From the NCBI GenBank assembly GCA_019753125.1, contig JAIELH010000016.1:1-41521 (forward strand): DNA of 41,521 nucleotides, read 5' to 3'. The notes below the pieces were generated by a model. That model was given only the letters and a program-made list of their open reading frames with translations, made no database searches and was not told the origin of the DNA. Position 1 is the first letter of the stretch, and every line of letters starts with the position of its first letter. The position numbers were made by a program, and so were the translations under genes. Shown piece after piece: positions 9,417 to 23,607 of this stretch. Source of the stretch: Gallionellaceae bacterium. GTDB lineage: Bacteria > Pseudomonadota > Gammaproteobacteria > Burkholderiales > Gallionellaceae.

Positions 9417-11258
9417 TCAGGCGGGCTGGATTTCGACCAGGGTTTCGTCCGGCGCTACGCTGTCGCCCTTCTTGACATGGATGCTGATCACGATGCCGCT
9501 CAGAGGCGCCTGGATTTCGTTTTCCATTTTCATCGCTTCGATGACCAGCACGCCATCTCCTGCCTCGACCTTGTCTCCGACCTTGACCTTGACGTCGACA
9601 ATCGTGCCGGGCATCGCGGTTGCCACGCAACCCTCGTGGGATGGGCGCGGACGCTCTGCGCCTGAAACCGGTGCGGCGGTTTTTTTCTTGCCGCCTGCTT
9701 TACCGCCGGAAACTTCGATCTCATTCAGCGTTTCGACGACGACTTCTTCCGAAATGCCATCGACGGAAACATAGAACGGACGCTGGGCTTCGCCGTGGTG
9801 TCCGCTGCCAGTGAGTTTGATATGGAAGGTCTCGCCGTGCAGCGTGACCTTGAATTCGTTCGGCGCATAACGCTCGGAGGTGGTGGCGGCGGCTTCTTTT
9901 GGCAGCAGCGGCTCGGGTTTGAGCGTGTTGGCATTGCGTTCCTGCAGGAAGGTTTTTGCCAGTTCCGGGAACATCGCATAAGTGAGGACGTCTTCCTCGC
10001 TCTTGGCCAAGTTCTCACACTCGATCTTGAGCTTGCCCATCTCATTTTCGAGCAGATCAGCCGGGCGGCAGGTCACGACTTCCGCATTGCCGACCGCAAG
10101 TTTCCTGACTTGTTCGTTGACCTTGCCCGGCGCCTTGCCATAGTGCCCAAGCAGGTAGTTCTTGACTTCATTCGTGACCGATTTGTAACGTGCGCCGGTC
10201 AACACGTTCAGCACCGCCTGGGTGCCGACGATTTGCGAGGTCGGCGTGACCAGCGGCGGATAGCCCAAGTCTTCGCGCACCCGAGGAATTTCGGCGAGCA
10301 CTTCGTTCATGCGGTTCAGCGCGCCCGATTCCTTGAGCTGGTTGGACAGGTTGGAAATCATGCCGCCCGGCACCTGGTTGACCAGCACGCGTGTGTCCAC
10401 GCCGGTGTAGGCGCTCTCGAATTGCCAGTATTTCTGGCGCACTTCGTAGAAATAGGCGGTCAATTCCTGTATCGCGGCGAGGTCGAGGCCGGTATCGTAG
10501 GGTGTGCCTTTCAGCGCGGCGACGATGCTCTCGGTCGAGGAATGGCTGGCGCCTTCGCCGAACGAGGAGTTGCAGGTATCCAGTATCGTGGCGCCTGCTT
10601 CGACAGCCTTGAGGAAGCACATCGAGGACAGGCCGGAGGTGGAGTGGCTGTGCAGGTGGATTGGCAGTTTGACCGCCGCGCGCAGCGCCTTTACCAGATC
10701 GGTGGTTGCGTAAGGCGTGAGCAGGCCGGCCATGTCCTTGATGCAGAGGGTATCGCAGCCCATCGCTTCCAGCTCGCGGGCCAGCTCGACGAACTGGGGG
10801 ATGCCATGCACCGGGCTGGTGGTGTAGCTGATGCAGCCCTCGGCATGCTTGCCGGATTTTTTTACCGCTTCGACGGAGACGCGCAAATTGCGCAGATCGT
10901 TCATCGCGTCGAATATGCGGAACACGTCGATGCCATTGGATGCGGACTTGCTGACAAAGGCGCGTACCACGTCGTCGGAGTAGTGCCGGTAGCCGAGCAG
11001 GTTCTGGCCGCGCAACAGCATCTGGATGCGGCTGTTCGGCAAGGCCTTGCGCAATTTCTTCAGGCGTTCCCACGGGTCTTCTTTCAGGAAGCGCACGCAG
11101 GAATCGAAGGTCGCGCCGCCCCAGGCTTCTACCGACCAGAAGCCGATGCTGTCGAGCTTGTGGCAGATCGGCAGCATGTCTTCGGTGCGCATGCGCGTCG
11201 CGATCACGGATTGATGTCCGTCACGTAGAACTAATTCGGAAATGAGGGTTTTTGCCAT
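9417..11258 (-). CDS. pycB: Pyruvate carboxylase subunit B / oxaloacetate decarboxylase alpha-type carboxyltransferase
   Basis: This 613-residue protein joins a carboxyltransferase domain to a C-terminal biotinyl domain. The N-terminal barrel opens with ISELVLRDGHQSVIATRM and contains EAWGGATFDSC and the metal-ligand run LHLHSHSTSG. The middle is the conserved PycB/OadA region. An acidic and Ala-rich linker leads to the lipoyl/biotinyl domain with the biotinylation motif EAMKMEN (Lys about residue 577). The biotin carboxylase pycA is directly upstream (27-base gap), and no OadB or OadG membrane subunits are present. This argues for the ATP-dependent two-subunit pyruvate carboxylase that makes oxaloacetate rather than a Na+-pumping decarboxylase. 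It is convergent with kup; the 74-base gap has no clear intrinsic terminator. Confidence 0.93.
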   Translation of the reverse strand: MAKTLISELVLRDGHQSVIATRMRTEDMLPICHKLDSIGFWSVEAWGGATFDSCVRFLKEDPWERLKKLRKALPNSRIQMLLRGQNLLGYRHYSDDVVRAFVSKSASNGIDVFRIFDAMNDLRNLRVSVEAVKKSGKHAEGCISYTTSPVHGIPQFVELARELEAMGCDTLCIKDMAGLLTPYATTDLVKALRAAVKLPIHLHSHSTSGLSSMCFLKAVEAGATILDTCNSSFGEGASHSSTESIVAALKGTPYDTGLDLAAIQELTAYFYEVRQKYWQFESAYTGVDTRVLVNQVPGGMISNLSNQLKESGALNRMNEVLAEIPRVREDLGYPPLVTPTSQIVGTQAVLNVLTGARYKSVTNEVKNYLLGHYGKAPGKVNEQVRKLAVGNAEVVTCRPADLLENEMGKLKIECENLAKSEEDVLTYAMFPELAKTFLQERNANTLKPEPLLPKEAAATTSERYAPNEFKVTLHGETFHIKLTGSGHHGEAQRPFYVSVDGISEEVVVETLNEIEVSGGKAGGKKKTAAPVSGAERPRPSHEGCVATAMPGTIVDVKVKVGDKVEAGDGVLVIEAMKMENEIQAPLSGIVISIHVKKGDSVAPDETLVEIQPA

Positions 11259-11285
11259 GTTAATTGACTTGACGGTAGGTTGAAA

Positions 11286-12704
11286 TTAGATGCCTTCATG
11301 TGCCGCGATGACAGCCGAAATAGCGGCTGCCCTCAATTCCGGCGGAATTTTTGTCGTGTAATCGATCAGCTCGGGATGGGCTTCCACGAACCCGGTGTTG
11401 AAGTCCGCATTCCTGAAGTCGGGGTGTTTCAATATTTCCTGATAGTACGGCATCGTCGTCTTGACGCCATAGATCACCATGTCGCCCAGCGCGCGGCGGC
11501 CGCGTTCGACGACGCCATCCCAGGTGAGCGCCCATACGGTGAGTTTGGCGCACATCGAGTCGAAGTAGGGCGGTATCTCGTAGCCGCTGTACATCGCGGC
11601 GTCGATGCGCACACCGGGGCCGCCCGGCGCATAGTAACGCGTGATCTTGCCAAAGCTCGGCAGAAAGCCATTCTTGGGGTCTTCCGCGTTGATGCGGAAC
11701 TCCATTGCGTAGCCGCGAAATTTGACGTCTTCCTGTTTGTATTGCAGCTCAAGCCCGTCGGCGATGCGGATCTGTTCCTGCACGAGGTCGATGCCGGTGA
11801 TGGTTTCCGTCACGGTATGCTCGACCTGGATGCGGGTGTTCATTTCCATGAAGTAGAAATGGTTGTCCTGGTCGAGCAGGAATTCGACGGTGCCGGCATT
11901 TTCATAACCCACGGCACGGGCGGCCATCACGCCGAGATTGCCGATATATTCGCGCTGCGCCGGGGTGATCTGCGGCGACGGGGCGATCTCGATCAGTTTC
12001 TGGTTGCGGCGCTGGATCGAGCAATCGCGTTCGAATAAATGGATCGTATTGCCATGGCTGTCGGCGAGTATCTGCACCTCGATATGGCGCGGGTTGACCA
12101 CACATTTTTCCAGGAAGACTTCCGGCTGACCAAACGCCTTGTTGGCTTCCGAAATCACCCGCTCGTAATTGCCGATCAGGTCTTTGTCGCTGTCGCAGCG
12201 GCGGATGCCGCGCCCGCCGCCGCCGTTGGTGGCCTTGAGCATGATCGGGTAGCCGATTTTGTTTGCCAGGGCGCGCGCTTCTTCAACATTGGCGAGGTTG
12301 CCGTCGCTACCTGGCACGCAGGGAATGCCGGCGGCTATCATCGCGTTGCGCGCCTGGATTTTGTCGCCCATCTGGCGGATCACATCGGCGCTCGGGCCGA
12401 TGAATTTGATGCTGCGGCGCGCGCAAATTTCCGCCAGTTCCGGATTTTCCGCAAGGAAACCGTAGCCCGGATGCAGCGCATCGCACCCTGAGGTAACCGC
12501 GATGTTGACGATGTTATGCGCGTTCAGGTAACCGGTGACCGGTTCGGAGCCGATATGGTAGGCCTCATCGGCTTTTTTCACGTGCAGCGCGTGGCGGTCG
12601 GCGTCGGTGTAGATGGCGACCGATTTGATGCCCATTTCCGAGCAGGCACGCACAATGCGCACCGCGATTTCACCGCGGTTGGCGACGAGTATTTTTTTTA
12701 TCAC
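11286..12704 (-). CDS. pycA: Biotin carboxylase, pyruvate carboxylase subunit A
   Basis: This 472-residue biotin carboxylase has the classical start KKILVANRGEIAVRIVRAC, then HPGYGFLAENPELAEIC, the ATP-grasp glycine loop GGGGRGIRRC, the catalytic EKCVVNPRHIEVQILAD, RDCSIQRRNQKLIE and MEMNTRIQVEHTVTE. It charges the biotin on the partner subunit with bicarbonate and ATP. Length fits the two-subunit PycA (about 470), slightly longer than AccC. The start is a GTG at 12704 with GGGGA about seven bases upstream; the second to fifth codons contain a run of eight A residues. It is first in the pycA-pycB operon, with a good promoter about 90 bases upstream. AccC of fatty-acid synthesis is the alternative, but the neighbour argues against it. 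Confidence 0.94.
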   Translation of the reverse strand: MIKKILVANRGEIAVRIVRACSEMGIKSVAIYTDADRHALHVKKADEAYHIGSEPVTGYLNAHNIVNIAVTSGCDALHPGYGFLAENPELAEICARRSIKFIGPSADVIRQMGDKIQARNAMIAAGIPCVPGSDGNLANVEEARALANKIGYPIMLKATNGGGGRGIRRCDSDKDLIGNYERVISEANKAFGQPEVFLEKCVVNPRHIEVQILADSHGNTIHLFERDCSIQRRNQKLIEIAPSPQITPAQREYIGNLGVMAARAVGYENAGTVEFLLDQDNHFYFMEMNTRIQVEHTVTETITGIDLVQEQIRIADGLELQYKQEDVKFRGYAMEFRINAEDPKNGFLPSFGKITRYYAPGGPGVRIDAAMYSGYEIPPYFDSMCAKLTVWALTWDGVVERGRRALGDMVIYGVKTTMPYYQEILKHPDFRNADFNTGFVEAHPELIDYTTKIPPELRAAAISAVIAAHEGI

Positions 12705-12928: not shown

Positions 12929-13867
12929 ATGTCGCGCAAATATCCAATCATCGCGGTTACCGGTTCATCCGGTGCGGGCGTCTCTGTAGTAAGGCATGCT
13001 TTTGAGAATATTTTCCGCCGCGAGACAAACTGCGCATGTCTGGCGACATCGGGCCGTTCTGAAAGAAAAATCCAGGCGGCATACATCGAAGGTTCCAGCC
13101 TGCATAACATGGATCGCATCGCATTTCAGGCGGCCGCGGCAGCAGCGGCCAAGGCCGGCAACAACACCTTCAGCCACTTTGGCCCGGAAGCCAATCACTT
13201 CGACAAGATCGAAGAAATGTTCAGGAGCTATGGCGAAACCGGCATGTGCCGGCGGCGCCACTATATACATAGCGAAGCCGAGGCCGGCAAATACAACAAG
13301 CACTTCGGTTTGACCGACCTGAAACCGGGCGTATTCACGCCATGGGAAGACATTGAAGAAAATTCTGACTTCATGGTTTACGAGGGGCTGCATGGCCTGG
13401 TGGCCGACGCAGCCAGCAACATCGATGTTGGAAAATATGTGGATTTCGGCATCGGCGTCGTGCCGGTGGTGAATCTGGAATGGATCCAGAAGATTCATCG
13501 CGACAAGACGGAGCGCGGTTATTCCACCGAAGCGACGGTGGATACGATCATGCGCCGGATGCCTGATTACATCAAATTCATCACGCCGCAATTCTCCAGA
13601 ACTCATATCAATTTCCAGCGTGTGGCGACCGTCGATACCTCGAACCCGTTCATCGCGCGCGATGTCCCATCGCTGGATGAAAGCTTTGTCGTAATCCGTT
13701 TCCGTGACCTAAAGGGCGTGGATTTTTTGCACCTGCTGACCCTGATTCCGGGTTCGTTCATGTCGCGTGCCAACACGCTGGTGGTGCCGGGCGGAGCGAT
13801 GAGCGTCGCGATGGAAACGATCCTCGCGCCGGTCGTGCATCAGATGATCGAAAACAAGAATGGATAA
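12929..13867 (+). CDS. Phosphoribulokinase family protein, divergent, catalytic Asp replaced
   Basis: This 312-residue protein is clearly of the proteobacterial (class I) phosphoribulokinase family: IIAVTGSSGAG P-loop, NTFSHFGPEANHFDKIEEMF, MVYEGLHG (Walker B Glu), LEWIQKIHRDKTERGYSTEA and INFQRVATVDTSNPFIARD. Two things are unusual. Between the P-loop helix and the substrate loop there are about 14 extra residues (around 33-50). The loop that should read EGD-x-F-H reads EGSSLH, so the catalytic base (Asp42 in the Rhodobacter enzyme) is Ser56. His59 and Arg63 of the loop remain. The start has AGGGAG just upstream. Canonical enzymes phosphorylate ribulose 5-phosphate in the Calvin cycle; this one may be inactive, regulatory, or act on another substrate. 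The frame is continuous, so it is not a simple pseudogene. Confidence 0.88.
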   Translation: MSRKYPIIAVTGSSGAGVSVVRHAFENIFRRETNCACLATSGRSERKIQAAYIEGSSLHNMDRIAFQAAAAAAAKAGNNTFSHFGPEANHFDKIEEMFRSYGETGMCRRRHYIHSEAEAGKYNKHFGLTDLKPGVFTPWEDIEENSDFMVYEGLHGLVADAASNIDVGKYVDFGIGVVPVVNLEWIQKIHRDKTERGYSTEATVDTIMRRMPDYIKFITPQFSRTHINFQRVATVDTSNPFIARDVPSLDESFVVIRFRDLKGVDFLHLLTLIPGSFMSRANTLVVPGGAMSVAMETILAPVVHQMIENKNG

Positions 13868-15858: not shown

Positions 15859-16641
15859 ATGGCCAAGATCAGGCTAACCACAAAAGATTTTTCCGTCATG
15901 CGCAAACGGCTGCTGCAAATGCATTTCGACAGCGGCGTAGGACATATTGGCGGAAACCTGTCGGCACTGGATGCCATGCTGATTGTGTTCCATGAATATC
16001 TCGGTGGGGAGGATAAATTTATCTTGTCCAAGGGGCACTCGGCAGGCGCTCTCTATACAACGCTGTGGAGCCTGGGGCGTCTTCAGGACCAGGACCTGAA
16101 GTTATTCAGCAAGGACAACACGCTGCTTGCCACACACCCGCCGGCGAGGGGTATTGCGGATATCCCGTTCGCCACCGGCAGCTTGGGACACGGCTTGTCG
16201 CTTGCTGCGGGAACGGCGCTTGCGTTCAGATTAAAGGGCAATAATGCCCAAGTGTTTTGCCTGACCTCTGACGGTGAATGGCAGGAAGGTTCGACATGGG
16301 AGGCGCTGATTTTTGCCTGCCATCACCGGCTATCCAATCTCACCGTGCTGGTGGATCACAATAATTTGCAGGGATTTGGCTCCACTGCCGATGTCGCGTC
16401 GATGTCCCCGCTCTGGGATAAGCTTCAAGGTTTCGATGTTGAGCTGCTGGTAATCGATGGACATGACCCTGATGCCATTCGCGCCGCGCTTGAAGGAGAG
16501 AGGAAACGCCTTCGGGTCGTTGTTCTGCGCACCGTCAAGGGGCATGGGGTCAGCTTCATGGAAAACCGGATGGAATGGCATTACCTTCCTCTCACCGAAG
16601 CGCAATACCGCCAGGCAATCGAGGAAGCCGATCTCAAATGA
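15859..16641 (+). CDS. Transketolase, N-terminal subunit (split type)
   Basis: This 260-residue protein corresponds to the thiamine-diphosphate (pyrimidine/phosphate) half of transketolase. Seen are GVGHIGGNLSALDAML, LSKGHSAGALYTTLW, FATGSLGHGLSLAAG and the ThDP/Mg motif SDGEWQEGSTWEA..DHNN. The first Gly of the usual GDG is Ser here. Transketolases move two-carbon ketol units between sugar phosphates. Split forms are common in archaea and in some bacterial secondary pathways, whereas a housekeeping bacterial enzyme is usually one chain of about 660 residues. GGAG lies just before the ATG. The stop overlaps the start of the C-terminal subunit (ATGA), so the two are made together. Coupling to sugar-nucleotide and glycosyltransferase genes points to a glycan precursor role (inference). 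Confidence 0.93.
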   Translation: MAKIRLTTKDFSVMRKRLLQMHFDSGVGHIGGNLSALDAMLIVFHEYLGGEDKFILSKGHSAGALYTTLWSLGRLQDQDLKLFSKDNTLLATHPPARGIADIPFATGSLGHGLSLAAGTALAFRLKGNNAQVFCLTSDGEWQEGSTWEALIFACHHRLSNLTVLVDHNNLQGFGSTADVASMSPLWDKLQGFDVELLVIDGHDPDAIRAALEGERKRLRVVVLRTVKGHGVSFMENRMEWHYLPLTEAQYRQAIEEADLK

Positions 16642-17549
16642 GGAAACAACTTTGCGATGCGCTGGTGGCGCGAGCTGCAAAACCCGGGATGGTGTTTCTT
16701 ACCGGCGATTTGGGATTCATGGCGCTGGAGCCTCTGCGGGAGGCATTGGGGAAGCGCTTCATCAATGCCGGAGTGGCCGAACAAAATATGGTTTCGGTGG
16801 CGGCCGGGCTCGCGCGGCAGGATTTCGAAGTCTGGGTGTACAGCATCGCGCCATTTTGTTATGCGCGCCCGTTCGAGCAAATCCGCAACGATATTGCCTT
16901 CCACAACCTGCCGGTAAAATTGATCGGCAATGGAGGCGGTTACGGCTACGGCGTGCAGGGGCCCACTCATCATGCGATTGAAGATTATGGGGTGCTGTTG
17001 ACTCTGCCCAACATGTCTGTCTATGTTCCGGCATTCGATGAGGATATGGAGGCGATCATTGCACGTGCCGGAACCTCTCCCCGTCCTGCGTATATCCGCA
17101 TGGGACGCGGCGAACCTCCCGGGGGTTATACGGTGCCCGCCTATGCGCCCTGGCGGCAACTGACTTGCGGCAACGGCCCGGTGGTCATTGCAGTGGGGCC
17201 GCTGGCGGGAACCTATATCGAGGCTTTCGAGCGATTGCCTGTGGAGTCCCGCCCCAACCTCTGGGCTGTTTCCGAGTTTCCGCTCGGGCAGTTGCCCGGC
17301 GAATTGTTGGTCCAGATTGAGAAACAACCCGGCCTGTGTGTCGCCGAAGAGCATGTGCGGCGCGGCGGATTCGGTTCCGAACTGTTGTTGTATCTGGCCG
17401 AGAAAAACATTACCGTACGCCGCTTCCGGCATCTGTATGCCCGTGCACATCATTATGACCGGTATGGATCGCAGCAGTTTTTGCGCCGGCAATCCGCCCT
17501 CGATGCCGACAGCATGCTTGCCGTGCTGAAAGGATTCCAACATGCCTGA
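16638..17549 (+). CDS. Transketolase, C-terminal subunit (split type)
   Basis: This 303-residue partner contains the pyrimidine-binding domain with the ThDP-activating Glu in NAGVAEQNMVSVAAGLA. The middle NGGGYGYGVQGPTHHAIEDYG and YIRMGRGEPPGGY fit transketolase/DXS-type enzymes, and the C-terminal domain has CVAEEHVRRGGFGSELL. The start at 16638 overlaps the stop of the N-terminal subunit by four bases; GAGGAAG is upstream. A longer frame open to 16575 lies inside the other gene and is rejected. The gene ends with an 8-base overlap into the next one, so translation is coupled all the way from the transketolase to the epimerase-glycosyltransferase fusion. Confidence 0.93.
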   Translation: MRKQLCDALVARAAKPGMVFLTGDLGFMALEPLREALGKRFINAGVAEQNMVSVAAGLARQDFEVWVYSIAPFCYARPFEQIRNDIAFHNLPVKLIGNGGGYGYGVQGPTHHAIEDYGVLLTLPNMSVYVPAFDEDMEAIIARAGTSPRPAYIRMGRGEPPGGYTVPAYAPWRQLTCGNGPVVIAVGPLAGTYIEAFERLPVESRPNLWAVSEFPLGQLPGELLVQIEKQPGLCVAEEHVRRGGFGSELLLYLAEKNITVRRFRHLYARAHHYDRYGSQQFLRRQSALDADSMLAVLKGFQHA

Positions 17550-19506
17550 CTTGCAAGCTTACATTCGCGCCCTGAAAGGCCCGGTTCTGGTCACGGGCGC
17601 ATCGGGTTTTATCGGCGCCAACCTGTTCAAGATGCTCGCGGCTGTCCGCGACGATGTTTATGCGGTCATCCACCGCGAAAAAGGCTGGCGTCTTGCCGAG
17701 GTTGCCGATGAGCGCATTATTGCGGTAGATATTAACGATTATGCGGCAACCAAGAATCTCGTCAGCAGCGTAGCGCCGCAAACGGTTTTTGATTGCGTGG
17801 CTTACGGCGCCTATTCGTTCGAGGAAGACACCAACCTGATTTATCAGACGAACTTCCAGGCGATCGTCAATCTGGTCAGCCTGCTTGCGGGCCAGCCATT
17901 TTCCGCATTCATTCATGCGGGAAGCTCATCCGAGTATGGAACGAATTGCGCCGCGCCGCCCGAGGACAGTGTGTGCGAGCCGAACAGCCCCTATGCCGTG
18001 TCCAAGGTGGCGATTGCCGGATACCTGCGCTTCATGGGCAGGCAACGCAGCTTTCCCTGTGCGAACCTGCGCCTGTATGCGGTTTACGGCCCGCTGGAAG
18101 ACACCTCGCGCCTGATCCCGAATCTGTTGCGCCAGGCGCTGGCGGGGAAATTGCCGCCTTTCGTCGATCCGCGCACCTCGCGCGACTTCGTTCATGTGGA
18201 TGATGCCTGTGCCGCTTTTATTATGGCGGCGGCAAAAATGCATCCGGGTTTATACGGAGAGAGCTTCAATATCGGCAGCGGCATCAAGACCACAATAGCC
18301 GAACTGGCAGAAATCTCCCGGCGTGTGTTTGGTGTAACGGCCGAGCCCCAATTCGGCACGATGGACGGGCGCGCCTGGGACCTGGCGGAATGGTATGCCA
18401 ACCCGCGCAAGGCCATTGAGCAGCTTGGCTGGAAGCCGCAGATCGCCTTGGAGGACGGATTGCGCTCCACGGCGCGCTGGGTGGCGCAATTATCCGACAG
18501 CGAAATGGTTTCGGCATCCAAGAAATATATCAGCGAACGCAGGCGCAGCGTTTCCGCGATCATCGCTTGCTACAAGGATGCCCAGGCCATTCCGGTCATG
18601 CACCAGCGCCTGACCGAGGTTTTCCGCAAGCTGGATATCGATTACGAAATCATCTTCGTCAACGATGGCAGCCCGGACGACAGCGCGCGGGTGATCCGCG
18701 ACATCAGCGCAAACGACCCGCGCGTGATCGGTATTTCACACTCGCGCAATTTCGGCTCGCAGATGGCTTTCCGCAGCGGCATGGAACTCTCGACCAAAGA
18801 CGGCGTCGTGTTGCTGGATGGCGACCTGCAAGACCCGCCGGAGCTGATCGAAGCGTTTTATGCCAAGTGGGAAGAAGGATACGACGTCATATATGGCCGC
18901 CGCATCAAACGCGAAATGCCCTGGTACTGGGGTCTTATGTACAAGCTCTTTTACCGCATCTTTGCGATGTTCAGTTATGTCAGTATTCCACTCGACGCAG
19001 GCGATTTTTCGTTGATGGACCGGCGTGTTGTCGGCTGGCTGCTCAACTGTCCCGAGCGCGATCTGTTCGTGCGCGGCCTGCGCGCCTACGTGGGCTTCAG
19101 GCAGGTCGGCGTCGACTACGTGCGGCCGGAACGCATGTTCGGGCATTCGACCAATAGCCTGGTTAAAAATATCGATTGGGCAAAAAAGGGCCTTTTTTCT
19201 TTTAGCAATGCGCCGCTCACCATGCTTACGACTACCGGCGTCGTTTTGCTGGGAGTATCCTTGCTGTCCGCAATCGCGGTCACCTTGCTGCGATTGATTA
19301 TGCCGGAGATAGCGCCGCGCGGCATGACAACCCTGCTGATCACGGTTTTGTTTTTTGGTTCTTTCAACATCTTCGCCATTGGCTTGGTGGGTGAGTATGT
19401 GGCCAAGATCATGGCGGAGGTCAAAAGCCGCCCGCGCATGATACGCGCTGCTTTAATCAGAAATGGTAAAACCACTGAGCTTTTGCCTGATGGTAAAACT
19501 CACTGA
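17542..19506 (+). CDS. Fusion: NAD-dependent epimerase/dehydratase + DPM-type family 2 glycosyltransferase
   Basis: This 654-residue protein carries two enzymes. Residues 1-315 form an extended SDR sugar-nucleotide enzyme: VLVTGASGFIGANLFKML (NAD binding), AGSSSEYG, the catalytic Tyr/Lys in SPYAVSKVAIAGY, and DFVHVDDACAAF. From about 332 on is a family 2 glycosyltransferase of the polyprenyl-phosphate type: SAIIACYKDAQAIP, IIFVNDGSPDD, SRNFGSQMAFRSGME, LLDGDLQDPPELI and DAGDFSLMDRR. Two C-terminal membrane helices (about 565-590 and 605-630) complete it. GtrB, ArnC and DPM synthases share this second part and load a sugar onto a lipid carrier. The fusion implies that one polypeptide finishes the sugar nucleotide and then transfers it. 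It overlaps the transketolase by eight bases; AAAGGA precedes the ATG. Confidence 0.93.
   Translation: MPDLQAYIRALKGPVLVTGASGFIGANLFKMLAAVRDDVYAVIHREKGWRLAEVADERIIAVDINDYAATKNLVSSVAPQTVFDCVAYGAYSFEEDTNLIYQTNFQAIVNLVSLLAGQPFSAFIHAGSSSEYGTNCAAPPEDSVCEPNSPYAVSKVAIAGYLRFMGRQRSFPCANLRLYAVYGPLEDTSRLIPNLLRQALAGKLPPFVDPRTSRDFVHVDDACAAFIMAAAKMHPGLYGESFNIGSGIKTTIAELAEISRRVFGVTAEPQFGTMDGRAWDLAEWYANPRKAIEQLGWKPQIALEDGLRSTARWVAQLSDSEMVSASKKYISERRRSVSAIIACYKDAQAIPVMHQRLTEVFRKLDIDYEIIFVNDGSPDDSARVIRDISANDPRVIGISHSRNFGSQMAFRSGMELSTKDGVVLLDGDLQDPPELIEAFYAKWEEGYDVIYGRRIKREMPWYWGLMYKLFYRIFAMFSYVSIPLDAGDFSLMDRRVVGWLLNCPERDLFVRGLRAYVGFRQVGVDYVRPERMFGHSTNSLVKNIDWAKKGLFSFSNAPLTMLTTTGVVLLGVSLLSAIAVTLLRLIMPEIAPRGMTTLLITVLFFGSFNIFAIGLVGEYVAKIMAEVKSRPRMIRAALIRNGKTTELLPDGKTH
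19182..19188 (+). other. Candidate -1 slippery heptamer A AAA AAG
   Basis: The heptamer lies in exactly the X-XXY-YYZ phase of the fusion gene (codons 547-549). It forms part of the near-palindrome AAAAAAGGGCCTTTTTT (19182-19198). A -1 shift would add GPFFF and stop at 19203-19205, giving a 554-residue product without the two C-terminal membrane helices. No stimulating pseudoknot was found by eye. Confidence 0.25.
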
Positions 19507-19547
19507 GTTAAACGCCTCATTTTTAAAATCATCAAAGGGATTGAAAA

Positions 19548-20267
19548 ATGCAAGTCAAAAAAAATGTTGAGGTTTTCAATCAAGACATTTTACAAGGGCA
19601 AGGCTATAAATATACTACTGACGACAGGCTATCCACCCGCCTTGCCAATGCAAGAATGACACAGGGAATACGGGAGGCGACAGACTGGCACGGAAAAAGC
19701 GTTCTTGACATTGGCTGCGGTGATGGGACTTTCACACATACACTCATTCAAATGGGAGCAGCAAAAATCCTCGGTCTGGATCCAGCCAGCGCCGCTATCG
19801 AAAAAGCCATGCAGGGCGCGAAAGGCAATCCATTGGTACACTTCGACGTAGGCAATGTATATCAGCTTGACGCACTTCAACAAAAATTTGATATCGTCGT
19901 TTTTCGCGGGGTTTTACATCACCTGCCGGATGCGGCCAGCGCTGTCAAAATGGCTGCAAAGGTGGCAGGTGAAATCGTCATCCTGGAACCCAATGGCGCA
20001 AACCCGGTACTGAAAGGCATTGAAAAACTATCCTCCTACCATCGGTTGCATGAGGAGCAGTCGTTTCTCCCCTCGACCATCAGAAAATGGTGCTCCGAAG
20101 CGGGTGCGGTGTCGACCTATAGTAGATACATCAACCTTGTTCCCATATTTTGCCCTTCGGCATTAGCGCATCTGCTGAAATTTATAGAACCATTGGTAGA
20201 GCGAGTACCATTCTTGCGCAATATTGCTTGCGGTCAAATAGTGATCAGGGCAGCCGTTTCCCGATAA
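19548..20267 (+). CDS. Class I SAM-dependent methyltransferase
   Basis: This 239-residue soluble protein has a Rossmann-type methyltransferase core: motif I VLDIGCGDGTFTHTL (residues 52-66), the acidic end of strand 2 in ILGLDPAS, the post-motif FDIVVFRGVLHHLPDAASAV, and a following strand EIVILEPNGANPVL. The C-terminal part (SSYHRLHEEQSFLPSTIRKW) resembles methyltransferases of polysaccharide clusters. The substrate is not known; a sugar or lipid-linked glycan is likely from context. The start has AAGGGA seven bases upstream. The gene follows the fusion gene by 41 bases on the same strand and is markedly richer in A/T than the upstream genes, suggesting a different origin or relaxed composition. 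Confidence 0.88.
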   Translation: MQVKKNVEVFNQDILQGQGYKYTTDDRLSTRLANARMTQGIREATDWHGKSVLDIGCGDGTFTHTLIQMGAAKILGLDPASAAIEKAMQGAKGNPLVHFDVGNVYQLDALQQKFDIVVFRGVLHHLPDAASAVKMAAKVAGEIVILEPNGANPVLKGIEKLSSYHRLHEEQSFLPSTIRKWCSEAGAVSTYSRYINLVPIFCPSALAHLLKFIEPLVERVPFLRNIACGQIVIRAAVSR

Positions 20268-20381
20268 ACATGCCTCGCCAATTTTCTTTTAATCGGAAAG
20301 TGTGGAGGCGCTTTGGCTTCCGTGGCCGCCCCCCTGAAATGGCGCTATGCCGGGCTTGGTTTGTGTGAGAAAGAATGGTTT

Positions 20382-21287
20382 ATGAAAAACTCTCGCTCCT
20401 GCCCCGTCTGCAATACCGGTTCCGATAAGGCAAAACTCTTTATTGATAAGAATATAAATTTGGCAAAATTGTCCAGCTTCAGCTTTGCCTCGCGTAAAGA
20501 GCCGGAATATATGTGTCACCGGCTCGTGCAATGCCCCAACTGCGACTTGGTCTATGCAGATCAGCCACCTGGCGAAGAGGAGCTTGCGCATGCATATCAT
20601 GCCGCTGACTATGATAGTTCGGAAGAGGCAAACGACGCGGCAAAAGCCTATATCCTGGCCATGCGGCCAACATTGGACAAGCTTGCGCGGCGCCAGAGCG
20701 CGCTTGAAATCGGCACCGGCACCGGTATTTTTCTTGAGTGCTTGTCGCGCGAAGGATTTACGGAGCTGGTGGGTGTCGAACCGTCATCTGCGGCAATTGC
20801 GGCTGCCCCTGAATATCGCCGTGCATGGATTCGTGAGGGGATGTTTGAGAAAAAGGATTTTGCTCCCGGATCGTTCGACTTGATTTGTTGTTTCATGACC
20901 ATGGAGCACGTACGTGACCCTGAGATGGTCGCCAGTGCCGCATTCCACCTGCTGCGCCCGGGTGGTGCTTTCGTCACCGTGACGCACGATTACCGCAGCT
21001 TTGTCAACCGGTTGCTAGGCAGGCGTTCCCCCATTATTGACATCGAGCACATGCAGCTCTTTTCCGAGCGCAGCGTGCGCTATCTTTTTGAGAGCGCCGG
21101 CTATGCTGACGTCACGGTAAGCGCTTTTGCCAATACTTATTCGCTACGATACTGGATGCGCCTGGCGCCGTTACCTAGAGGTGTTAAATCGGCAGCATCC
21201 AGCTTTGCGGCTGCCCTGGGTATGGATAATGTCAAATTGAAGATAAATGTGGGCAATCTCACCACTTCCGGTTTTAAGCATGTTTGA
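20382..21287 (+). CDS. SAM-dependent methyltransferase with N-terminal zinc ribbon
   Basis: This 301-residue protein starts with a four-Cys knuckle (CPVC at 7-10 and CPNC at 51-54), which likely binds zinc. A methyltransferase core follows, with ALEIGTGTGIFLECL (about 107-121), VGVEPSSAAI, FDLICCFMTMEHVRDPE and LLRPGGAFVTVTHD. Such Zn-ribbon methyltransferases are frequent in O-antigen and capsule loci, where related proteins C- or O-methylate sugars. I prefer the ATG at 20382, because the two cysteine pairs start there and GAGAAAG precedes it. The frame is open to 20313, which would add 23 residues with no family features. The 3' end overlaps the GtrA gene by eight bases. Confidence 0.88.
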   Translation: MKNSRSCPVCNTGSDKAKLFIDKNINLAKLSSFSFASRKEPEYMCHRLVQCPNCDLVYADQPPGEEELAHAYHAADYDSSEEANDAAKAYILAMRPTLDKLARRQSALEIGTGTGIFLECLSREGFTELVGVEPSSAAIAAAPEYRRAWIREGMFEKKDFAPGSFDLICCFMTMEHVRDPEMVASAAFHLLRPGGAFVTVTHDYRSFVNRLLGRRSPIIDIEHMQLFSERSVRYLFESAGYADVTVSAFANTYSLRYWMRLAPLPRGVKSAASSFAAALGMDNVKLKINVGNLTTSGFKHV

Positions 21288-21735
21288 CAAATTCCGCCAT
21301 TTTGTAGCCGAAATTGCCGGCCGTAATCGTTTTTATGGTACTGGTTTTAGCCCACAAAAAAATAGGGCAATACGCTTCCTGATCGCGGGAGTGATAAATA
21401 CACTTTTTGGTTTTGCGATCTACAGCGTATTTATCATAATTGGGGTTGCAGTATGGCTTTCGCTATTGGCCGGAATGCTTTCTGGAACGGCCTTCAATTT
21501 TTTTACCACGGGTGGTTATGTATTCCGTGACTTGTCACTCACCCGCTTCCCTCGGTTTGTCATTTGCTACCTGTTTGTTTATGGCGTAAATATTTTGTTG
21601 ATCGAGATAATTTCTTTCTGGCTAAACAGTAAAATACTGCCTCAAGCCATCGTCATATTTCCACTGGCGTTGCTTTCGTATTTTCTTATGGCGCGATTTG
21701 TATTTTCTACCGCCAAGGATTCGATAGGCGGATGA
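21280..21735 (+). CDS. GtrA-family membrane protein (putative lipid-linked sugar flippase)
   Basis: This is a 151-residue protein with four predicted membrane helices. It has the GtrA hallmark after a short cytoplasmic N-terminus, RAIRFLIAGVINTLFGFAIY, then the polar-flanked FNFFTTGGYVF and a C-terminal helix ending LLSYFLMARFVFS. GtrA proteins are thought to flip polyprenyl-phosphate-linked sugars across the inner membrane, working with a GtrB-type transferase (here the fusion protein) and a periplasmic GT-C enzyme. The likely start at 21280 overlaps the methyltransferase stop by eight bases. An upstream in-frame start (21247) exists but lies inside the neighbour. It is the last gene of the plus-strand operon and ends 36 bases before the convergent membrane protein. 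Confidence 0.9.
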   Translation: MFDKFRHFVAEIAGRNRFYGTGFSPQKNRAIRFLIAGVINTLFGFAIYSVFIIIGVAVWLSLLAGMLSGTAFNFFTTGGYVFRDLSLTRFPRFVICYLFVYGVNILLIEIISFWLNSKILPQAIVIFPLALLSYFLMARFVFSTAKDSIGG

Positions 21736-21771
21736 AGGTCATTTGGGTGCCGTGCCCTCCCATTATTGGGT

Positions 21772-23607
21772 TCATGCCAATTTGTCTGGCATTGATGACT
21801 TGAGTTTTCTCAGGAATGCAGGCGCAAACATTAACGGGGCTACCGCAAGCAGCACCACGAGCAGCAGCGTTGCCTGCGTCACCCGATTTGCGATTTGCTG
21901 TGCGGGAGAAAAACTGAACGGATAGGGCTTATAGCTTGTGAAGGCTTGCGCCGCCTCGCGCTGTGCAGACGTGAAATGGTCACCGGGCGTGCAGTGGTTT
22001 TGTTCGGGATAAAGGTAGCAGGCAGGGTTCTTGATATTCAGCAGGCCATTTTTTTCTTCCAATGCCAGCCCCGGGTGCAGCGCCTTGATTGGAAAGTACT
22101 CCAGGCCGTAACCGAATGACGGGTTGTAGCAGGCGAGTTGTGATGCGCCGAAGGCGATCAGGTCATTCCTGTTGTAAATCTGGTCACTCGCATTGGCAAA
22201 CGTACCGACATGTTGGATGCGTGGCTGTGCCGTGCTGGTTCTTGCGGATTGCCAAGCGTCTACGATGATGTCGGGGCGATAGCCCTGGGTGTGGTAGAAC
22301 GTGCGATCCTTGACGGCATTAAGCAGAACCAATGCCACAAGCGCGGCTGTGAATATTCCGTTCCTGCGGCCAGGCAGTTGCGAAATTTTGTCAAAGAACA
22401 GCGCCGACGACAAGATCGCGAGCGGAATGTAAACCAGAAACCAGCGCACCAGAGCGCTGCTCGACTTGATCACCGGAGCCTGCTTCAGGAAGGCATTCCA
22501 ATCCGGCGTATATATGTTCAGTGCAAGCGGTAGTGCAAGGATGAGCCCAAGTAATGCGAACCACCCATATCTGGTTATGCTTATATTTAGCTGTGGGTGG
22601 GCGCCTCGTATACGATAGAACCAGGATGCCGTTCCAGCCAGTATCAGCAGCAGTGGAATCATGGTAACGCCATATTCCCACTCGTGGCGTTCAAGCGCCC
22701 ATTGCATATTAGTGGTCAGCGCACGTGCCTGTTCGGCAATGTTTGTTGGAGCAAAGAAAAGCGCGCTGAACAACAGATGCATGGCATTCCAGATGCCGGT
22801 TACGCCCGGCAGGGAATAATCATTGCGCGGAAAGTTGCGCAGGAAAGATAGCAATGCCGTCAATTTTGCAGCCGACAGACCAATAGATACCAGCGCAGCA
22901 ATCGCCGAGCGGGGCACAAACCCCCTGGATATTCTGCCGGTGATGCCATGTATGCAGGTAATTCCCAACACAGCCAGCGCGCAAGGCAATATCTGCGATC
23001 CTATGCCGGAGTAGATTCCATATGCGAGCAGGCTGCCGCCAGCGGAGCCGTTGAACAGAACAGCAAATACGCGATTATTTACGGCAGGCCTGAGCAGCAA
23101 CCAGGCGATCAGCGGGACTAGCATCACGCTGTGAAAAGTGAGATGGCCAATCATCGCGCGGTGGATGAAGAATCCGTTGAACATGAACAGTGCGCCGCCG
23201 AGTAGCGCCGCTTGGCGGCTGGTATCAAAGCAGGTGCGCAGCAGCAGGTAAAAGCCCCAGAAGCCGAGTGATGCAAACAACAATACCGTTGCATAAACGC
23301 TGGCGAGAGGGTTAACGAAAAGGGTCAATATTTGTGTAACTGAATAGTAGATGGACGCTTGGTCGCCAAGCACCGGCTGGCCACCGCAAAAAGCCGGCGT
23401 GAACCAGAATGGCTCAAAAAGTCCATTACTCCTGAGCCAAAAATAGCCGTCCAGCAAGTTCGGCAGAGCGTGTGAATAATCATGCCCCAACGTGCCGTTG
23501 CGGGTCGGGAAAAATTGTCCAAAAATAAGGTGGAATGCAGTTAATAGCAGCAGAAAACTGGCGGGCACGAGCCAACGGCTTTGAAATATGATGGAAAGTC
23601 TTGCCAT
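21772..23607 (-). CDS. Large multi-spanning membrane protein, GT-C/YfhO-like, hypothetical
   Basis: This 611-residue protein has about eleven to thirteen hydrophobic helices. The start at 23607 is chosen for the strong AAGGA site seven bases upstream; the frame extends a further 26 codons upstream without support. After the first helix comes an exoplasmic loop with HDYSHALPNLLDGYFWL and EPFWFTPAFCGGQPV, the arrangement expected of GT-C transferases with an acidic motif (here HDYSH) in loop 1. A soluble stretch near the C-terminus (about 440-560) has several Cys and His, and a final helix ends in a basic tail. I do not recognise a named family. Next to GtrA and a GtrB-type enzyme, it is the natural candidate for the transferase that uses the flipped sugar (inference). 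Confidence 0.72.
   Translation of the reverse strand: MARLSIIFQSRWLVPASFLLLLTAFHLIFGQFFPTRNGTLGHDYSHALPNLLDGYFWLRSNGLFEPFWFTPAFCGGQPVLGDQASIYYSVTQILTLFVNPLASVYATVLLFASLGFWGFYLLLRTCFDTSRQAALLGGALFMFNGFFIHRAMIGHLTFHSVMLVPLIAWLLLRPAVNNRVFAVLFNGSAGGSLLAYGIYSGIGSQILPCALAVLGITCIHGITGRISRGFVPRSAIAALVSIGLSAAKLTALLSFLRNFPRNDYSLPGVTGIWNAMHLLFSALFFAPTNIAEQARALTTNMQWALERHEWEYGVTMIPLLLILAGTASWFYRIRGAHPQLNISITRYGWFALLGLILALPLALNIYTPDWNAFLKQAPVIKSSSALVRWFLVYIPLAILSSALFFDKISQLPGRRNGIFTAALVALVLLNAVKDRTFYHTQGYRPDIIVDAWQSARTSTAQPRIQHVGTFANASDQIYNRNDLIAFGASQLACYNPSFGYGLEYFPIKALHPGLALEEKNGLLNIKNPACYLYPEQNHCTPGDHFTSAQREAAQAFTSYKPYPFSFSPAQQIANRVTQATLLLVVLLAVAPLMFAPAFLRKLKSSMPDKLA

Follow-up and report, generated by a model that had tools for sequence, protein, structure and literature searches.

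A horizontally spread gtr-like cassette that may bring its own two-carbon sugar-branching transketolase

Contig JAIELH010000016.1 of a Gallionellaceae bacterium (assembly GCA_019753125.1; 41,521 nucleotides, analysed whole and called the window below) carries a gene set in which a transketolase (TK) split into two chains, TKN and TKC, is joined to a short-chain dehydrogenase/reductase (SDR) fused to a family 2 glycosyltransferase (GT2). We interpret this set as a gtr-like (three-component) cassette that has spread horizontally and supplies its own enzyme for two-carbon sugar branching, and we give this reading, with its two components holding together, a probability of roughly 0.55. Taken singly, a role in lipid-linked glycosylation is highly probable from the kinship of the encoded proteins, and transfer of a two-carbon (C2) unit by the split TK to a nucleoside diphosphate (NDP) keto sugar is moderately probable.

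The source assembly is a draft of 2.47 Mb in 97 contigs, and the cassette is flanked by recQ on one side and a fumarase gene on the other. The gene chain, its overlaps (4 bases between TKN and TKC, 8 between TKC and SDR-GT2, and 8 between MT2 and GtrA) and the convergent GT-C-like membrane protein, all reported in an initial annotation of this DNA, were confirmed in the window:

15859..16641, plus strand: TKN, split transketolase N-terminal subunit binding thiamine diphosphate (ThDP), 260 aa (Pfam PF00456, 81.9 bits; PDB 6yak)
16638..17549, plus strand: TKC, split transketolase pyrimidine-binding subunit, 303 aa (Pfam PF02779, 83.9 bits; PDB 6yaj)
17542..19506, plus strand: SDR-GT2 fusion, 654 aa (Pfam; PDB 5ekp; NCBIfam PgfS)
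19548..20267, plus strand: MT1, class I S-adenosylmethionine (SAM) methyltransferase, 239 aa (Pfam)
20382..21287, plus strand: MT2, class I SAM methyltransferase with an N-terminal CPVC..CPNC ribbon, 301 aa (Pfam PF13489, 95.6 bits, with the reading frame entered from 20376)
21280..21735, plus strand: GtrA-type small membrane protein, proposed flippase, 151 aa (Pfam PF04138, 46.5 bits, cut-off 26.1)
21772..23607, minus strand, convergent: GT-C-fold membrane glycosyltransferase candidate for the GtrC role, 611 aa (structure model)

Linkage and horizontal spread of the cassette

Relatives of the fusion were collected by a pattern scan of a collection holding one genome per bacterial or archaeal species. 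The scan returned 52, of which 45 are full length; this count omits two incomplete loci (L060, L066) and five with matches to the GT2 half only (L062, L063, L065, L067, L068). By record title the carriers are Beta-, Gamma- and Alphaproteobacteria, Verrucomicrobia, Eremiobacterota and actinobacteria, with Methylobacterium contributing 10 of the 45 full-length fusions and Gallionella and Gallionellales records among the closest relatives. Searching genomes for the split pair together with the fusion, as the initial annotation had proposed, we found TKN-TKC directly upstream and on the same strand in 41 of the 45. At L018 the pair is upstream with 228 bases separating the aligned TKN and TKC pieces, at L057 about 1 kb with a methyltransferase-like gene lies between TKC and the fusion, and at L019 and L054, both scored as not strict among the 45, the contig ends before the TKN-TKC site. 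The full fusion is also present in five of 398 Pseudomonadota genomes taken as a second sample, with 3 to 5 candidates scored in each genome; the five include the window's own, and TKC adjoins the fusion in all of them. Because this linkage is near-constant across full-length fusions, the proximity of the TK and SDR-GT2 genes is not due to chance.

A maximum-likelihood tree built from 85 TKC rows groups the cassette TKCs in a single clade (support 100/100), with the long-branch actinobacterial L059 outside it and the SDR-less L114 inside; placement of the long branches L059, L144, L015 and L138 is uncertain. Verrucomicrobiota rows adjoin Burkholderiales rows, and Vulcanimicrobiota rows lie among Alpha- and Betaproteobacteria on weaker forks, a mixing of phyla that indicates horizontal transfer. 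One cassette copy sits on a 1.57-Mb plasmid of Methylobacterium aquaticum, and a close TKC occurs in 4 of 61 genomes of the window's genus (G000, G024, G029, G042). The linkage counts, the plasmid copy and the TKC tree support the earlier proposal of a Gtr-like lipid-linked set built around a split TK, and show it to be conserved and horizontally spread.

Non-core genes vary between cassette loci, and the recQ neighbours of relatives differ from those of the window. No empty insertion site could be read among 30 recQ loci, since the window's recQ neighbours were found only in the window's own; one relative (L172) has a g25458 homologue near recQ. A phage origin was not supported in IMG/VR, where the peptide patterns used found no relative, and among 50,697 phage records the SDR and GT2 halves occurred together in one stretch of a single entry, an Enterococcus phage that is unverified (L180:1314-3287, 26% identity). 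The G+C content is ~0.50 across the methyltransferase-GtrA part versus 0.57–0.59 across the TK and SDR-GT2 genes, and a promoter and terminator scan of the locus gave no clear signal. Directly upstream of recQ lies a phosphoribulokinase/uridine kinase-family gene (12929–13867), adjoined by biotin carboxylase and oxaloacetate-decarboxylase-like genes (9417–12704, minus strand).

Kinship with gtr systems

The fusion consists of an extended NDP-sugar SDR (residues ~1–325) followed by a polyprenyl-phosphate GT2 of the GtrB/PgfS/ArnC type with C-terminal hydrophobic helices; its structure model (mean pLDDT 74.3) is good mainly in the SDR half. The GT2 half has as its nearest PDB relative the Synechocystis glycosyltransferase sll0501 (5ekp, E = 8.8e-59) and shares 34.6% identity with the corresponding region in phage P22 and related phages, where it is gtrB by annotation in some records, while the fusion matches NCBIfam PgfS at 208 bits, under the family cut-off of 500. 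By this kinship the cassette has the GtrB-type polyprenyl-phosphate GT2 of gtr systems. The window also holds a GtrA-type flippase gene, with PF04138 above cut-off, and a 611-aa membrane protein whose structure model has a GT-C fold. The GT-C enzyme varies between loci, as seen from the window's fold and from 51 large multi-helix candidates near cassettes, which cluster at E ≤ 1e-6 into 30 families and come from 34 of the 45 loci, counting that of the window; among these candidates a GT-C fold was modelled for the window's protein alone, and some may be unrelated neighbours. Across the 45 cassette loci a large multi-helix protein is found in 36, MT2-like genes in 27 and GtrA-like genes in 21, and MT1 is apparently locus-specific, with no counterpart at E ≤ 1e-10 among 68 loci. 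Two homologues of the GT-C-like protein, P0169 and P0177 (764 and 743 aa), also bear a GtrA domain.

Published gtr operons comprise GtrB, GtrA and a widely varying GtrC and are acquired horizontally (PMC3688519, PMC11127046). Constant donor-loading parts with a changing GT-C enzyme agree with this picture. The gtrABC cassettes of Salmonella, Shigella and phage P22 and the three-component pentofuranose systems (Citrobacter, GT136) likewise place a sugar on undecaprenyl phosphate and employ a flippase and a GT-C enzyme. They differ in loading glucose, galactose or pentofuranoses, and the pentofuranose systems further in using a UbiA-family synthase and a MATE flippase, whereas in the cassette the split TK and the SDR fused to GT2 are constant and a methyltransferase is frequent.

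The transketolase pair and its acceptor site

In sequence searches, the best PDB match of TKN is the N component of a split-chain TK (6yak, E = 1.3e-48), and TKC matches 6yaj (E = 7.8e-31). The window's TK pair scores above the Pfam cut-offs for Transketolase_N, E1_dh, DXP_synthase_N and Transket_pyr, with TPP_enzyme_C below its cut-off, and does not belong to the ThDP decarboxylase superfamily of YerE-like enzymes. TKN keeps DGE..NN, which we take to be the cofactor (ThDP) motif. Aligned to one another and to the genome's own tkt, the cassette relatives retain, invariant or nearly so, the ThDP motif, the catalytic Glu (E411) and the equivalents of His26/His261, R358 and R520, positions whose roles are partly presumed. 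At the acceptor site TKC has the motif GNGGGYGYGVQGPTHH; in the alignment to the genome's own tkt, the His461 equivalent is Gly, the Asp469 equivalent is Gln (Met in most relatives) and the residue at the Arg91 equivalent differs as well. A gap falls at the Ser385 position, which was not used as evidence. Across 85 split-TK rows (7 of 91 hits left out as short or holding a stop), His461 is found in none and Asp469 in three, while both are kept in the genome's own tkt and in the solved split TK (6yaj). The role of His461 and the transfer of E. coli TK numbering onto the cassette motifs are our assumptions. In E. coli TK, mutation of Asp469 (the partner of Arg91) and of Ser385 (in contact with the substrate phosphate) served to shift the acceptor from phosphorylated aldehydes to others (PMC5073344); Arg358 is named as a TK residue in PMC7661550.

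The genome holds a canonical tkt as two contig-end pieces (125 aa and 461 aa). Its presence, the loss of acceptor-site residues and the constant linkage together indicate, at the level of sequence, that the cassette TK is not the housekeeping transketolase. The initial annotation had allowed that a housekeeping role would be more likely if the split pair were the sole TK of the genome and its neighbourhood not conserved; the check for a second tkt that it suggested yielded the canonical pieces above, and the neighbourhood is conserved. The split TK of Carboxydothermus hydrogenoformans (6yaj/6yak) resembles the cassette pair in its two chains and is its best sequence match among solved structures, yet it retains both acceptor-site residues, His and Asp, and its characterisation used aldehyde acceptors (PMC7661550).

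Distant split transketolases and precedents for branching

A split-TKC-like protein occurs at E ≤ 1e-24 in 68 of 398 Pseudomonadota genomes. In a neighbourhood sample of 40 split-TK loci, 4 of them cassettes, seven contain rfbF (glucose-1-phosphate cytidylyltransferase) together with rfbG (CDP-glucose 4,6-dehydratase) in the sampled stretch, versus none of 30 recQ-centred control loci (138 kb in all vs 473 kb for the split-TK loci). Among the loci examined, dehydratases exceed the NCBIfam cut-off in L117, L118, L119, L130 and L133, and cytidylyltransferases in L118 and L133; RfbH is above cut-off in L118 and L133. An SDR adjoins the TK in L117, L118, L119 and L130 and, by BLAST, in L120 and L122, and the SDR of L133 adjoins rfbG.

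YerE-type yersiniose synthesis, in which YerF is the SDR partner of YerE, resembles the cassette in having a ThDP enzyme (and an SDR) in a surface-glycan context, and the distant split TKs share its CDP-4-keto-6-deoxy setting, with RfbH in two loci. The rfbFG setting of the distant split TKs is the CDP-sugar pathway in which a CDP-4-keto-3,6-dideoxy sugar is branched by YerE (PMC12247030). YerE itself is a decarboxylase-superfamily enzyme with pyruvate as its substrate (PMC12247030), whereas the ThDP enzyme of the cassette belongs to the transketolase superfamily and is without neighbouring genes for CDP-4-keto-(3,6-di)deoxyhexoses (rfbF/rfbG in 0 of the 45 cassette loci L017–L061). The altered acceptor site and the distant split TKs beside CDP-4-keto-6-deoxyglucose genes thus lend indirect support to the branching role put forward in the initial annotation, and the reading of that annotation as a whole is partly supported.

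For the split-gene TKs of miharamycin and amipurimycin, hydroxyacetyl transfer onto keto sugars has been proposed, with no in-vitro test, and 13 Streptomyces candidate sequences are listed (PMC12247030). These clusters, likened here by description only, make nucleoside antibiotics, and the section describing them mentions no fused SDR-GT2, GtrA or GT-C (PMC12247030). The wps-2 polysaccharide cluster of Actinoplanes missouriensis, like the cassette, combines a split TK with a methyltransferase but is assigned to a Wzx/Wzy pathway with two DegT genes, GtrA being in another cluster; its deletion had no phenotype under the conditions used, and the TK is given no function (PMC13390465). Our searches of open-licence literature found no description of this cassette, and no paper using the term came up in a search for dihydroxyethyl-branched lipopolysaccharide sugars. 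The earlier statement that no such system is described needs narrowing, because a keto-sugar branching role had already been put forward for the split-gene TKs of miharamycin and amipurimycin (PMC12247030) and a split TK was already placed in the Actinoplanes polysaccharide cluster (PMC13390465).

Other split TKs lie in further settings. Five loci (L114, L115, L132, L135, L147) have the order TKN-TKC-MT2-GT2, with an MT2-like gene between TKC and GT2 and no neighbouring SDR found; in L135 a GalE-like gene lies further off. Some of these clusters, a second architecture of the same theme, are near genes that read by eye as radical SAM proteins and further methyltransferases. By eye, the split TKs of L141, L146, L139 and L136 lie near genes resembling haloacid dehalogenase (HAD) phosphatases and radical SAM proteins, and L139 and L141 have look-alikes of HldE-type nucleotidyltransferases, possibly a separate activated-sugar pathway. 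On a Roseibium algicola plasmid (L006), an rfbF-rfbG-DegT-methyltransferase-SDR-GT2 cluster has, in the position taken by the TK in other clusters, a methyltransferase; its SDR and GT2 are unfused and ~30% identical to the fusion, and its DegT scores under the RfbH cut-off.

The SDR half and sugar-nucleotide supply

The SDR half carries an S-Y-K triad (GSSSEYG, YxxxK), presumably standing where 4,6-dehydratases have a TDE-type motif. An acidic residue at the end of strand beta-2, which we take to be typical of NAD-binding epimerases, is present in 2 of 52 sequences (L040, L057; the count caught 52 of 59 sequences and missed 7, and some are duplicate fetches of one locus). Because this residue is otherwise missing, the sequence suggests that the SDR half is an NADPH reductase. 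When the SDR profile was compared with the PDB, epimerases and dehydratases scored closely together.

With few probes and over 53 cassette sequences, no dedicated sugar-nucleotide pathway was found travelling with the cassette; a galE-like match lies near the L059 cassette. Substrate identity was also sought from the co-occurrence of dehydratases, and this approach was dropped because the rmlB frequency in carriers is close to background.

Proposed pathway and alternatives

In the proposed pathway, the split TK would use a ketose phosphate as donor of a glycolaldehyde unit and attach this unit to an NDP-keto sugar supplied by the host, at its keto carbon, so that a hydroxyacetyl branch results. 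The SDR half would then reduce a carbonyl, most likely that of the branch, and the fused GT2 half, on strong family grounds, would load the sugar onto undecaprenyl phosphate. MT2 may methylate the sugar, GtrA would by family flip the lipid-linked product, and the locus-specific GT-C enzyme, as its predicted fold suggests, would transfer the sugar to a surface glycan.

Several findings weigh against this pathway. The folds nearest to the SDR half are NDP-sugar 4-epimerases (UDP-sugar 4-epimerases nearest) and dehydratases, with the first ketoreductase at rank 49. GtrA-like genes are present in under half of the cassette loci (21/45). The five split-TK loci where no neighbouring SDR was found imply that reduction is not always involved and that the SDR is not constant outside the fusion clade. 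The TKs linked to rfbFG share only 34–39% identity with the cassette TKC and lie elsewhere in the tree, and three of the seven loci come from one genus (L119, L120, L122). The cassette has no dehydratase or nucleotidyltransferase gene, and the few probes used detected NDP-6-deoxysugar genes in the vicinity of only 2 of the 53 cassette sequences (L034, rmlA/B/D; L035, gmd and fcl). Of the three 4,6-dehydratases sought in 37 cassette genomes (above cut-off, rmlB in 32, gmd in 25, the CDP-glucose type in 13), none is universal, and the 32/37 for rmlB is close to its background (94/120 in the phylum, 81/101 among relatives).

A variant of the pathway would be self-contained and redox-neutral. 4-Epimerases oxidise C4 of an NDP-hexose in passing; the SDR might so oxidise a common NDP-hexose, the TK add glycolaldehyde to the resulting ketone, the same SDR reduce the side-chain carbonyl and the GT2 load the branched sugar onto the lipid carrier. 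Such a cassette could do without a sugar-nucleotide pathway of its own, and its travelling without one would thereby be explained, but we regard this variant as doubtful.

Alternatively, the TK could make an unusual ketose or aldose phosphate that host enzymes activate and SDR-GT2 uses, with no branching of an NDP-sugar. We consider this unlikely: the two phosphate-binding arginines (R358 and R520 equivalents) are kept, and another split-TK group (L141, L139) lies beside the HldE-type nucleotidyltransferase and HAD phosphatase look-alikes, but the rmlA and rfbF probes picked up a nucleotidyltransferase gene (rmlA) beside a single one of the 53 cassette sequences (L034; kinases not searched for), and the rfbFG-linked relatives point to an NDP-keto acceptor. 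Less likely still is that the SDR and GT2 handle a common sugar, loaded for example once 4-epimerised, with the TK product modifying something else in the same glycan. Both the UDP-sugar 4-epimerases nearest in fold to the SDR and the loading of glucose by GtrB-type enzymes (PMC11127046) would fit this, whereas the tight TKC-SDR-GT2 overlap, the near-constant linkage and a beta-2 end that suggests NADPH and a reductase argue against it. That an ordinary housekeeping TK lies by chance beside an unrelated glycosylation operon is very improbable, for although a split TK active on ordinary aldehyde acceptors exists in C. hydrogenoformans (PMC7661550), the linkage is constant over several phyla, a canonical tkt is also present (checked in the window's own genome) and the acceptor-site residues are lost.

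Implications

If the proposed C2 branching is true, transketolase-type enzymes would gain a role in the diversity of bacterial surface glycans, where a 2025 review attributes branched sugars to YerE-like enzymes (PMC12247030). The cassettes would also offer a set of two-subunit enzymes in which to probe whether transketolases accept ketones, a point still unproven according to that review (PMC12247030). New branched sugars would then be predicted in carriers among Methylobacterium, Azorhizobium, Rhizobium, Cupriavidus and Rhodanobacter.

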